Shown in pieces: positions 11,062 to 32,402 of a DNA stretch of 32,402 bases (the stretch's first letter is position 1; every line of letters begins with the position of its first letter). Location of the stretch: NCBI GenBank assembly GCA_945869475.1, contig CAMBOV010000021.1, positions 1 to 32,402 of the forward strand, in the 5' to 3' direction. The notes under the pieces are model-generated. The model did no database searches. It was given only the letters and a program-made list of their open reading frames with translations, and had not been told where the DNA came from. Origin of the DNA: Singulisphaera sp. GP187 (GTDB lineage Bacteria > Planctomycetota > Phycisphaerae > Phycisphaerales > SM1A02). Position numbers and translations under genes: made by a program.

Positions 11062-12088
11062 GAACGCGGGCGTCCGCGGTCAGCGTTTCAATCGCATTTT
11101 TCACGATTGAATCAGGGTTGACCCCTTCGGCTTCACCTTCAAAGTTGATCAGCATCCGGTGGCGCAGTCCCGGCAGCGCGCATTTCTGGATGTCTTCGAC
11201 GTTGACGTGTCCCCGTCCAGCGAGCAGTGCATAGACCTTCGCCCCCAGCGCGAGGGTCTGCGCCGCGCGTGGGCTCGCGCCAAAGCGCAGATATCGATTC
11301 GTCATCGGCGTCGCGAACTGTCCCTGCGGATGGGTCGAAAGCACGAGGCGCACGGCATAATCCTGCACGTGCGGGGCGATCTTCACATGCCTCACGAGCT
11401 TCTGATGTGAGAGGATCGCAGCCGCGTCGAGCACCCGTTCGATCGCTGGCGTCTCGCCCGCAGTCGTGCGATTCAAGATTTCAGAGAGTTCTTCACGCGT
11501 CGAGTAACCCACTTCGAGCTTGAAAAAGAATCGGTCGAGTTGTGCTTCGGGCAGTGGATACGTTCCTTCTTGCTCGATTGGATTCTGCGTCGCCATCACC
11601 AAGAATGGCTTGTCGAGAATGTGCGTGGTTCCGCCGACGGTCACACTGCGTTCCTGCATCGCCTCCAAGAGCGAGGATTGCGTCTTTGGAGTCGCGCGGT
11701 TGATTTCATCGGCGAGCAAGATCTGCGTGAACACAGGTCCCTTGCGAAACTGAAAATCCCGTCCACCATCGCGTTCAACAACGATGGTCGTGCCAGTGAC
11801 ATCGGCGGGCATCAAGTCAGGTGTGAACTGAATGCGATTGAAGTCGAGTGACAACGCTTGCGAGAGCGAGCGCACGAGCAGAGTCTTGCCGAGCCCCGGC
11901 ACCCCCTCAAGGAGCGCATGCCCGTTCGCAAAGAGCGCGACGAGCACGCCATCAACCACGTCGTGGTGGCCGACGACTGCCTTCTGTATCTCTTTTCGCA
12001 CCCGAGCAAAGTCCTGCTGAAATCTCGCCGCGTGCTGTTCAATTGTTGCTGTTGTTGTCTCGCCCATTGGGTTTGATAGTAACGGCAT
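11054..12088 (-). CDS. MoxR-family AAA ATPase
   Basis: The protein has 344 residues. It has Walker A GVPGLGKT (62-69), Walker B ILLADEIN (123-130), sensor-1 region ATQNPIEQEGTYPLPEAQLDRF and a C-terminal lid domain with YLRFGASPRAAQTL, all typical of MoxR ATPases, which act as chaperones for maturation of secreted or membrane complexes. The usual partners (DUF58 and VWA-domain genes, transglutaminase) are not on either side here, so its client is unknown. It is convergent with the DUF559 gene. ATG 12088 and ATG 12067 are both possible starts; neither has a strong ribosome-binding site, and the choice affects only seven residues before the first helix. Confidence 0.9.
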   Translation of the reverse strand: MPLLSNPMGETTTATIEQHAARFQQDFARVRKEIQKAVVGHHDVVDGVLVALFANGHALLEGVPGLGKTLLVRSLSQALSLDFNRIQFTPDLMPADVTGTTIVVERDGGRDFQFRKGPVFTQILLADEINRATPKTQSSLLEAMQERSVTVGGTTHILDKPFLVMATQNPIEQEGTYPLPEAQLDRFFFKLEVGYSTREELSEILNRTTAGETPAIERVLDAAAILSHQKLVRHVKIAPHVQDYAVRLVLSTHPQGQFATPMTNRYLRFGASPRAAQTLALGAKVYALLAGRGHVNVEDIQKCALPGLRHRMLINFEGEAEGVNPDSIVKNAIETLTADARVPA

Positions 12089-12147
12089 CTGCGCAGCAGA
12101 CCCGCCTCAGCCGCTCGCGACGCGCGCGCGTTACACTCGCGACGCTG

Positions 12148-12270
12148 GCAGTCGTTCACCAGTGCGATACGAGTTGGAGGAATGCGGTGCAATTCCGCAG
12201 TGATCGCGTCACCGTAAGCGCTGAGTTGGGTTCATCCCTCTCAGCGCAAGCCGGGTCGACCAACTCGAAT
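12148..12270 (+). ncRNA. Cobalamin (B12) riboswitch
   Basis: The conserved core is present: GGAATGCGGTGCAATTCCGC (12179-12198), then CGCGTCACCGTAA (12205-12217). This matches the GGAA..GGTGcAAnTCC..CGC.ACtGTAA consensus. Pairings found by eye are an outer 8-bp stem CGAGTTGG/CCAACTCG (12170-12177 with 12260-12267), GCGG/CCGC (12184-12187 with 12195-12198) and an 8-bp stem GCGCTGAG/CTCAGCGC (12218-12225 with 12240-12247). A B12-box-like AGCCGGGTCGACC lies at 12249-12261. The 5' boundary is approximate. No T-run terminator follows. A pyrimidine tract (12291-12305) could pair with the AAGGAAA ribosome-binding site at about 12339, so translational control is more likely. It precedes the secreted protein gene at 12351. 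Confidence 0.87.
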
Positions 12271-12350
12271 CGCCTTCGTGTCTCTTGTTGCCGTTCCCTC
12301 CCTTTGGATCCCTGCGCGAAACAGGTGCTCCGCATTTCAAGGAAACTTCC

Positions 12351-12902
12351 ATGTCCATTTCGCGATTCATCGTGAGCGCTTCTGCGCTCGTTGTCTCTGT
12401 CACGACACACGCAGCGATCATCGGCAACCACTCGGTTGGCTCAGGTGCAAATTCTGCGGTGATTCAGATCGATCAAGAGGATGGCGACGGCTATCTCTTC
12501 ACAGTCGCATGGGATGGCGCTGCGTACGACAGTTTGGATGCGCTGTTCGCCATCGACATCGCGATGGACTCTGTCTCGATGACCTTCGAGACTTTTTCGT
12601 TCGGCACGATGCTGACGGGCATCACGATCGACGGCGACACCGACTTCGGCACCGGCGATCTCTGGCCAATCGAGAACTACTGGCACTTCTGGTTGCGCGA
12701 CACGGGCGCGTGGGATCAAGCGCAATTCGGCGCGAGCGATCGGCTGCTCTTCAACGGAGCATCCGATGCATGGACCTTTGGATCGCCAACACCGCCGCAG
12801 AGCGTTCCCGCTCCAGGCGCAGTCGTGCTCAGCCTTTTTTCACTTGCAGCTTTTCGAGCACGCTGTCGATCAGTCCATACTTCAACATCTCAGCTGAAGT
12901 GA
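12351..12902 (+). CDS. Secreted PEP-CTERM-like surface protein under a cobalamin riboswitch
   Basis: The protein has 183 residues from ATG at 12351, with AAGGAAA about 6 nt upstream. A signal peptide (1-21, ending THA) is followed by a compact acidic domain (about 22-148). The C-terminal VPAPG motif, a hydrophobic stretch [12 protein letters not shown] and an Arg cluster FRARCR form a PEP-CTERM/exosortase-type sorting signal, here with a 9-residue tail beyond it. The segment [21 protein letters not shown] to AWTFG loosely recalls the DUF4430/transcobalamin C-terminal pattern. That likeness is by eye only. Riboswitch control means expression is expected when B12 is scarce, so a surface cobalamin-capture role is a reasonable inference. 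The last 74 bp overlap the clpP gene on the other strand. No exosortase or B12 transporter is visible in the window. Confidence 0.78.
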
Positions 12903-13431
12903 GCCACATGTTTCGCTCACAATCTTCAGCGATGCGCTCTTTGGTTTGGCCAGTCTGCACTGCATAGATGTTGTAGAGCTGGTCGCGAAGACGCAAGATG
13001 TGCCGCGCCTCGATTTCGAGGTCGGTTGCTTGTCCTTCGAGCACACCACCGAGCAGTGGTTGGTGCATCAGGTTTTCTGAATTCGCAAGGGCGAATCGTC
13101 GTCCCTTTGTGCCGCAGCAGGCGATCACGCTGCCCATACTCGCGGCTTGTCCGATGATGTAGGTCGCAACAGGGCACGGAAGAAATCGAATCGTGTCAAC
13201 AATGCCGAGTCCCGCAGTCACGCTGCCACCTGGGCTATTGACGTAGATCGAGATCTCACTCTTGGCATCCTCGTTGGCGAGAAACAACAACTGCGCCACG
13301 ATGAGGTTTGCCATCCCATCGGAGACCTGTCCTCCAAGAAAGATGATTCGGTCATTGAGGAGGCGCGAGTAGATGTCGTACGCGCGTTCGCCACGGCCTG
13401 TTTTTTCAATCACGATTGGGATGATGCTCAT
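12829..13431 (-). CDS. clpP: ClpP-family serine peptidase, paralogue 1 (Asp-to-Asn triad)
   Basis: The protein has 200 residues, normal ClpP length, starting with the classic [33 protein letters not shown]. The nucleophile Ser98 (GQAASMGS) and His123 (LMHQP) are present. At the Asp position of the family motif D-T-E-R-D it has D-C-E-R-N (Asn174), so the third triad residue is Asn, a change known from Listeria ClpP1. ClpP forms two stacked heptamers and degrades proteins delivered by ClpX/ClpA/ClpC; no Clp ATPase gene is in the window. It is the third and last gene of a three-clpP minus-strand operon (3-nt gap from paralogue 2). Its 3' end overlaps the PEP-CTERM-like gene convergently by 74 bp. 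Confidence 0.93.
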
Positions 13432-13434
13432 AAG

Positions 13435-14067
13435 TCAATCCTTGGAAAGGGTGGGAGTTGGAAATCGATCAATGATTCGGTCGATGAGCCCGTACGAGAG
13501 CATCTCGGGTGCGTTGAGCCAGAGGTCGCGATCACAATCGAGACCAATTTGTTCTGCGCTCTTGCCAGTCGCGTCGGCGTAGAGAAGATTGCACTGCTCT
13601 TCAAGGCGCAGCATGCGACGCGCCTCGATTTCGAGATCGGTCGCTTGCCCTTCGATCTCGTCAAAGTAGCGACCCTGGTGCATGAGGTTCCATGCATGTG
13701 GCATTGCGAATCGTTTGCCCTTCGCGCCGCAACACGCAATCACGCTCATCATGCTCGGTGCCGAGCCGACGATATACGTCGCAACCTCGCACGGAATGAT
13801 GCGCATTGTGTCGATGATCGCGAGACCGTCGCTCACACTGCCACCTTGTCCATTGATGTACATGCTCACTGGAGCGTCAGGCTTGTCATTGGCCAGAAAG
13901 AGCAGCTGCGCAACGATCGCGTTTGCCATCTCTGACTCGACCTCACCTGAACAGAGCACGATGCGGTCGGCAAGCAACCGTGAGACGATGTCAAACTCGC
14001 GCTCGGAATAGCCCGACGAATCAATGACGTGGGGCACCAACAGAGGTTCGTCTTCCATCACAACCAT
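13435..14067 (-). CDS. clpP: ClpP-family serine peptidase, paralogue 2
   Basis: The protein has 210 residues from ATG at 14067. The triad is complete: Ser105 (GSAPSMMS), His130 (LMHQG) and Asp181 (DCDRDLW). It differs from typical ClpP at the residue after the nucleophile motif (SMM, where most have SMG) and in the substrate-binding loop (INGQGGSV, most have INSPGGSV). This suggests altered specificity or a mainly structural role in a mixed ring. The N terminus (VPHVIDSSGYSEREFDIVSRLLADRIVLCSGEV) aligns with the handle region of ClpP. It lies 6 nt after the stop of paralogue 3 and 3 nt before paralogue 1, so all three are almost certainly one transcript, which favours hetero-oligomers. Confidence 0.92.
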   Translation of the reverse strand: MVVMEDEPLLVPHVIDSSGYSEREFDIVSRLLADRIVLCSGEVESEMANAIVAQLLFLANDKPDAPVSMYINGQGGSVSDGLAIIDTMRIIPCEVATYIVGSAPSMMSVIACCGAKGKRFAMPHAWNLMHQGRYFDEIEGQATDLEIEARRMLRLEEQCNLLYADATGKSAEQIGLDCDRDLWLNAPEMLSYGLIDRIIDRFPTPTLSKD

Positions 14068-32252: not shown

Positions 32253-32402
32253 CAATTGAAGAGTTTGATCCTGGCTCAGATTGAACGCTGGCGGCATAGC
32301 TAAAACATGCAAGTTGAGCGAAGCAGTAGCAATACTGACTGAGCGGCGTAAGGGTGAGGAATACATTTCTATGTACCCCAAGGTCGAGGATAGCCAAGAG
32401 AA
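32253..32402 (+). rRNA. rrs: 16S ribosomal RNA, 5' end (partial)
   Basis: AATTGAAGAGTTTGATCCTG starts at 32254, followed by GCTCAGATTGAACGCTGGCGGC, the universally conserved 16S 5' end, including the 27F primer site. The gene continues past the window. Helix regions around CATGCAAGTTGAGCG and AAGGGTGAGGAATACA differ from the usual CATGCAAGTCGAACG and GTGAGTAACAC, pointing to a divergent lineage, in line with Planctomycetota. The 5' boundary is set by alignment with E. coli numbering and may be off by a few bases. Confidence 0.96.

Follow-up and report, generated by a model that had tools for sequence, protein, structure and literature searches.

The window, by which we mean the whole stretch of 32,402 nucleotides analysed here, carries a cobalamin riboswitch directly ahead of a gene for a 183-residue protein, termed protein A. 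This arrangement had been proposed for 12148-12902 in the original prediction, and it was confirmed by an RF01482 match and by covariation of the leader, with coordinates that fit. The features of the locus are as follows.

12162 to 12276, plus strand: compact, RF01482-like cobalamin riboswitch aptamer core (RF01482 match at 12165-12272; our own model R1 at 12162-12276)
12204 to 12208, plus strand: loop bases TCGCG, read as L5, complementary to a downstream hairpin loop
12311 to 12325, plus strand: hairpin CCTG-CGCGAAA-CAGG, taken as P13/L13 and lying 25 nt ahead of the ATG
12339 to 12343, plus strand: ribosome-binding-site-like AAGGA, read from the sequence
12351 to 12902, plus strand: gene A, an open reading frame from the ATG at 12351 to the stop at 12902, for a 183-aa secreted protein predicted to resemble the transcobalamin beta domain
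12351 to 12413, plus strand: signal peptide of A, about residues 1-21, by inspection
12417 to 12791, plus strand: beta-grasp-type domain of A, residues 23-147, from the predicted structure
12804 to 12869, plus strand: sorting-type tail of A (VPAPG, hydrophobic stretch, Arg cluster), from the sequence and a regular expression

Gene A is the only gene able to follow the riboswitch, as the next gene runs the opposite way, and it is neighboured in the window by genes of the AAA/MoxR type and by Clp genes. A pair of neighbouring Clp protease genes (PF00574) spans 12829-14067 on the minus strand; the 3' end of the first (12829-13431) overlaps the 3' end of gene A at 12829-12902, including part of the sorting tail, which puts a constraint on both frames.

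A permissive scan of 12000-12450 (451 bases) matched RF01482 at 12165-12272 with 41.6 bits against a gathering score of 50 (E 2.3e-6), and the whole-genome search gave RF00174 at the leader with 23.2 bits against 31.5 (E 7.1e-4). No cobalamin-like element in the window reached an Rfam gathering score in the default scan, from which the leader is missing because it scores below the curators' threshold. The covariance-model check on the leader thus gave a match below the gathering score, and the core can be called well conserved, as it had been, only in a looser sense than that of passing Rfam's threshold. Over the whole genome at E <= 0.1, the window leader was the single RF01482 match.

Covariation was evaluated on 20 aligned upstream regions (alignment A3, with L019 omitted as trimmed short, L009 as truncated, and L024 and L025 as a longer type), and R1 was trained on the window sequence and 19 related sequences. 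Base pairing was observed in 93.5% of cells, against 24-41% when the partners were slid by 1-3 columns, and double-sided changes occurred in 13 of 23 pairs (shuffle mean 8.8; 13 was reached by 1 of 500 shuffles), while none of 500 shuffles reached the covariation score of the leader alignment; both controls lean toward structure, since the alignment that was tested also supplied the structure and its sequences are related. Folding the whole leader as a single sequence gave z -2.7, which was not counted as aptamer evidence. Two terminator-like sites, against 0.9 expected, were likewise not used as evidence, and no promoter-like sites were found.

Downstream of the aptamer, the loop of the hairpin at 12311-12325 is complementary to the bases at 12204-12208, and we read the two as an L5-L13 kissing loop. 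A hairpin with an L5-complementary loop was present at 15 of the 23 loci with gene A (the window and 14 of 22 others), where mononucleotide shuffles gave 1.5 as the expectation and the loci are related rather than independent; in 13 of these 15 loci, the hairpin ends 12-33 nt before the ATG. The hairpin is likely part of the expression platform, and its closeness to the ribosome-binding site suggests control at the level of translation.

By single-sequence search, 23 genomes proved to carry a homologue of A, out of 61 searched (37 of the family and 24 from other families of the order, with the window's own genome included). The original prediction would have been undermined by homologues consistently lacking the riboswitch; a cobalamin-riboswitch match was present upstream of 22 of the 23 loci, several of them weak. 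Beyond the window, 18 of 20 A loci showed a match just upstream on the strand of the gene at E <= 0.5, of which 13 had E below 0.007 and five between 0.012 and 0.29, with L019 alone above the gathering score. Three more of the 23 loci gave 74.9 bits (L024), 67.0 bits (L025), both above the RF00174 cut-off, and 19.1 bits (L016, E 0.24). In genome G013 (L009/L033), the aptamer directly before A has kept its 5' half and lacks its 3' half, and riboswitch regulation of A may have been lost there.

Searching 294 genomes from across the phylum with a profile added 12 A loci from 11 genomes, nine of them with a riboswitch: eight have a match upstream, seven of these above the cut-off and reaching 112.9 bits, and at the ninth, L215, the riboswitch (90.3 bits) heads its operon and is likewise above the cut-off. 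In all searches together, the RF00174 threshold was reached upstream of A relatives at L019, L024, L025, L051-L056, L061 and L215, and L057 (G045) had a weak match only (18.2 bits). Two of the 12, L059 and L060, match only profile positions 130-177 and 134-178; they are taken as sorting-tail matches and kept in the count, and neither had an Rfam cobalamin match at E <= 0.5. With R1, the element was detected before A in 21 of 22 named loci, at least 7 of these 21 evidently lying on the same contigs as training loci, L033 being the truncated form and L046 starting inside the gene. When the 61 genomes were searched with RF01482 without regard to proteins (E <= 0.1), 22 matches were obtained, 16 before A and 6 before protein B (described below), none above the gathering score; one of them, in G030, was first labelled 'other' and stands before B. 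Because its helices covary, RF01482 matches recur before A or B and the L5-L13 hairpin accompanies it, the element is more than a look-alike: the window leader RNA is a cobalamin riboswitch, beyond chance.

The signal peptide claimed for A was seen by inspection, residues 1-19 being of low confidence in the predicted model, and a hydrophobic export-type segment opens all 23 homologues (by inspection, with start codons chosen by hand). The predicted VPAPG tail also held up, in that a regular expression for P-x-P/T-[A/G/S], a hydrophobic stretch and basic residues matched 23 of 23 homologues. Curated tail models recovered few members at E <= 1 (PF07589, 3/23; TIGR02595, 2/23; the MYXO-CTERM model TIGR03901, 5/23), and the window protein matched neither PF07589 nor TIGR02595. 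Exosortase (PF09721) is encoded in the window's genome (G000) and in 36 of 37 genomes, so A combines the two marks of a PEP-CTERM/exosortase substrate, a tripartite tail and an exosortase in the same genome.

Pfam gave zero matches for window protein A and nothing consistent across members, and PDB sequence searches with A alone or with its profile returned nothing credible. An AlphaFold2 model built from a 23-sequence alignment had pLDDT >= 90 for 116 of 183 residues and covered the core. The top PDB matches of this model in Foldseek were haptocorrin (4.5e-4), 3u7z from Ruminococcus (9.6e-4), intrinsic factor (1.3e-3) and then transcobalamin, only haptocorrin and 3u7z falling at E <= 0.001. 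By VIA alignment, 15 entries stood out with Z 11.4-13.1, rmsd 2.2-2.6 A and 96-107 aligned residues, the next fold following at Z 6.2; these 15 are 14 animal B12 carriers and 3u7z. Sequence identity between A and the beta domains of the animal carriers is 13-17%. The element order of the model (two strands, a helix, a hairpin, further strands) agrees with that of the transcobalamin-like clade, with the hairpin after the helix, as given in PMC1796856. Based on the predicted model, A would have the fold of the beta domain of transcobalamin, intrinsic factor and haptocorrin.

The earlier hint at DUF4430 stood as far as this fold is concerned and failed at the level of the Pfam family, as none of 23 members matched PF14478 at E <= 1 and no match was found in the window's genome. 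Structure comparison likewise placed A with the DUF4430/transcobalamin fold and not with BtuG or BtuH, which had been listed with DUF4430 for comparison. The NCBIfam model SCO2322_fam (NF040672) matched 18 of 23 members at E <= 1, with a best E of 8.4e-5 and scores far below the cut-off of 85 bits (10.9 bits for the window protein), and comparison of the A profile with eight planctomycete DUF4430 proteins gave 73% probability (E 3.1e-5). A weak link of A to SCO2322/DUF4430 is thus suggested at the sequence level. In the 2007 study of Burroughs (PMC1796856), bacterial transcobalamin-like SLBB members were proposed to scavenge B12 or its precursors.

A had been taken as the sole riboswitch target, and this was not borne out, as the genome carries a second riboswitch (54.3 bits) outside the window that controls a different secreted protein, protein B.

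Contig C1 of the window's genome (G000), 120577 to 121758: second riboswitch locus (L001/L122), with the riboswitch followed by the secreted, BtuH-like protein B and a prepilin-type DUF1559 gene

The tail of B is a GC-type dockerin-like segment (E 2.3e-6, 27.9 of 29 bits). A profile of 44 B domains matched residues 392-611 of the Bacteroides BtuG1 chain 8blw_B (E 1.9e-8), the part which PMC10404256 assigns to the BtuH domain; BtuH2's own sequence was not among the profile matches at E <= 10. For this profile (alignment A2), 53 B open reading frames were reduced to 51 by a length filter and to 49 by removal of redundancy, and 44 were aligned after the five most divergent had been omitted. Foldseek put the structure predicted for B (mean pLDDT 96.0) nearest to 8blw_B (E 7.8e-6), and VIA placed BtuH2 (7biz) at Z 12.2 (rmsd 3.0 A, 136 residues) and 8blw at Z 11.9, followed by unrelated carbohydrate-binding modules at Z 9.1. 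B is a secreted protein homologous to the B12-binding BtuH domain; according to PMC8941943, BtuH2 binds B12 directly.

Most of the length of B was covered in 24 of 25 family genomes and part of it in the 25th. Each of these 25 family f1 genomes had at least 30 to 56 matches to P0002, the extras among those listed lying mainly in the dockerin end, and these genomes appear to possess a large dockerin-bearing secretome. A was missed in 15 of 37 family genomes by the single-sequence search, one of which (G026) has A by profile. A looks accessory, because it was missed in many family genomes while B was found in all 25 of those listed above.

The 61 genomes gave 61 RF00174 matches above the cut-off. 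Downstream of 60 of these riboswitches, B was found in 53 cases, A and no B in six, and neither in one (within 6.5 kb), some of the downstream stretches being short because of contig ends; the 61st riboswitch (G022 C26) stands before A. In total, A and/or B stand downstream of 60 of these 61 riboswitches. The labels were assigned with profiles against 866 open reading frames downstream of riboswitches, on which the B profile was also iterated, and the E-values refer to this small set. A prepilin-type gene was flagged in 38 of 60 by a simple motif test that misses some, for example that of G018, and the prepilin-type gene of the window's genome matches DUF1559. The operon orders include riboswitch-A-B (L051-L054), riboswitch-A-B-prepilin type (G040) and riboswitch-prepilin type-A (G215). 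Since they share riboswitches and operon arrangements, A and B form one B12-linked set.

Taken as one marker for the synthesis of corrin de novo, CbiC was found in 0 of 61 genomes and in 7 of 14 control genomes, and judged by this marker these bacteria seem unable to make B12. A use for the vitamin is indicated in the window's genome by MetH (TIGR02082, 1220.7 bits against a cut-off of 1010.85). A FecCD-type permease is present in this genome and in 58 of the 61; in the window's genome its neighbours are a gene resembling those of substrate-binding proteins (NF038402, 31.0 of 30 bits) and, by inspection, an ABC-ATPase-like open reading frame. The best NCBIfam matches of the permease include BtuC but also F420 and iron transporters, none above its cut-off, and B12 is one candidate substrate of the transporter.

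The TonB-dependent barrel PF00593 occurs in 20 of 37 genomes (11 of 23 from the family and 9 of 14 from other families of the order), and eight of the 12 family genomes without it carry A (completeness 85-95%). A single TonB-dependent receptor occurs in the window's genome; it comes closest to the TonB-Xanth-Caul type, has a carboxypeptidase-like domain and is not identified as a B12 receptor by the models. Among 30 TonB-barrel matches in the 37 genomes, only that of G048 shares a contig with, and adjoins, an above-cut-off riboswitch. The absence of BtuB is provisional and does not extend to the whole order.

Taken together, A probably has a part in the extracellular capture of vitamin B12, and we are fairly confident that it is a riboswitch-controlled cobamide-capture protein of the cell surface which works together with B. 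Surface capture is the best-supported function because of the transcobalamin fold of A and the BtuH homology of B, and the same two findings favour the likeness to the surface B12 binders of Bacteroidetes that had been drawn in the original prediction. When intracellular cobalamin is scarce, the riboswitch would be unbound and the leader open, so that the P13 hairpin, which lies close to the ribosome-binding site, stays free and translation of A proceeds; with cobalamin bound, P13 would pair with L5, in keeping with repression by B12, the sign and level of regulation that we infer. A would then be exported and its C-terminal tail processed by exosortase, which should leave the protein at the cell surface displaying one transcobalamin-type beta-grasp domain that would bind cobamide. 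B, secreted under the other riboswitch, would concentrate B12 jointly with A for uptake, and the captured B12 would be imported across the inner membrane and reach MetH. The hand-over of cobamide after A may proceed through the co-regulated prepilin-type protein, a candidate for the outer-membrane step.

Such a B12-repressed surface capture system may not need BtuB at all. A fuller version without BtuB, in which capture proteins of two folds, A and B, anchored by a sorting tail or a dockerin and in some genomes joined by propeller-like proteins, pass cobamide to the co-regulated prepilin-type protein, which would help it across the envelope to the ABC importer, is conceivable and put forward tentatively.

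It is rather unlikely that A serves as a secreted helper which takes cobamide over from B, relays it to the machinery of uptake and is not the primary catcher. The accessory distribution of A, with B present in genomes where A was not detected, and the operons that A, B and the prepilin-type gene share in some genomes speak for such a role; in the window, however, A alone can follow the riboswitch, and the title of PDB entry 5np4, 'Beta domain of human transcobalamin bound to cyanocobalamin', implies that a beta domain can hold B12 alone. Against surface capture by A as the preferred reading weigh the accessory look of A, the weak showing of its tail with the curated models, the one TonB-dependent receptor of the window's genome and the alpha/alpha toroid, which A lacks and with which the beta domain of the mammalian carriers jointly binds B12 (PMC1796856).

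Less probable still is a role of A in binding another small ligand or a matrix component, with B12 regulation reflecting surface remodelling when B12 is scarce. PEP-CTERM-type proteins are often matrix-associated, which would suit this explanation. So would the caution of a reviewer, printed with PMC1796856, that domains of the transcobalamin clade may have other, diverse ligands. Yet 60 of the 61 above-cut-off riboswitches of the order lead to A and/or B, B belongs to a B12-binding family, and two B12-binding folds under one type of control point to B12 as the ligand. That the leader matches a riboswitch by mere chance and A is an ordinary PEP-CTERM protein is highly improbable, for although both window scores lie below the Rfam gathering values, the leader covaries and the element recurs before homologues, above the cut-off before the divergent ones.

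Surface capture of B12 by A and B, the preferred reading, can be set beside known systems. A shares its predicted fold (Z 11.4-13.1) with the beta domain of the animal B12 carriers; unlike them, it is a lone bacterial domain that carries signals for export and sorting and lacks the alpha/alpha toroid. With the transcobalamin-like SLBB clade and DUF4430, A has in common the predicted fold, a probable extracellular location and the B12 scavenging predicted in PMC1796856; it differs by its riboswitch linkage and its PEP-CTERM-type tail, and the operons of that clade, as described there, contain CbiO/CbiQ-type transporter genes, whereas A has AAA/MoxR-type and Clp neighbours. Bacteroides BtuG, BtuH and BtuJ are also riboswitch-controlled extracellular B12 binders, according to PMC8941943, PMC10404256 and PMC12751083. 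B is homologous to their BtuH domain, whereas A has a different fold. Furthermore, the Bacteroides proteins are lipid-anchored, whereas A and B would be held by a sorting tail or a dockerin, and in contrast to the Bacteroides surface system no btuB lies beside the riboswitch in the window.

In Bacteroides, surface capture of B12 under riboswitch control is thus already known, and the proposal that transcobalamin-like domains of bacteria scavenge B12 dates from 2007. Within the open-licence PMC literature, three points are apparently new: a free-standing transcobalamin-type domain combined with a cobalamin riboswitch and a sorting tail, the company of BtuH-like proteins that A keeps in planctomycetes, and the order-wide occurrence of cobalamin riboswitches that lead almost always to secreted A or B. 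Regulation and fold independently indicate a B12 role for the unnamed protein family A. In A, a bacterium has a predicted transcobalamin-type domain controlled by a B12 riboswitch, and the above-cut-off cobalamin riboswitches of the order (61 genomes sampled) almost always precede genes for secreted proteins and not btuB. The BtuH domain is extended beyond the Bacteroidetes and Firmicutes named in PMC8941943. It also becomes testable how B12-dependent planctomycetes without a recognisable BtuB acquire B12. If the fuller version without BtuB is true, the fold with which the animal carriers grip cobalamin also serves a free-standing surface protein of bacteria that does the same job.

The one above-cut-off riboswitch followed by neither A nor B (L135, G048 C22, riboswitch at 85453-85700) stands before the gene of a TonB-dependent receptor. 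Among NCBIfam models, TIGR01779 for the B12 receptor fits it best (E 5.4e-80, 269.7 of 599.7 bits). The receptor is BtuB-like, and the arrangement in G048 is perhaps an alternative state of the same regulon. By inspection, propeller-like secreted proteins lie between the riboswitch and B in ten genomes (L127, L129, L132, L136, L153, L156, L168, L175, L186 and L187); a profile of seven of their sequences had no BtuG chain among its matches at E <= 1, and the one that was scanned, L127, gave a dockerin match only. At the end of the window, the contig stops inside a 16S rRNA gene (32253-32402).
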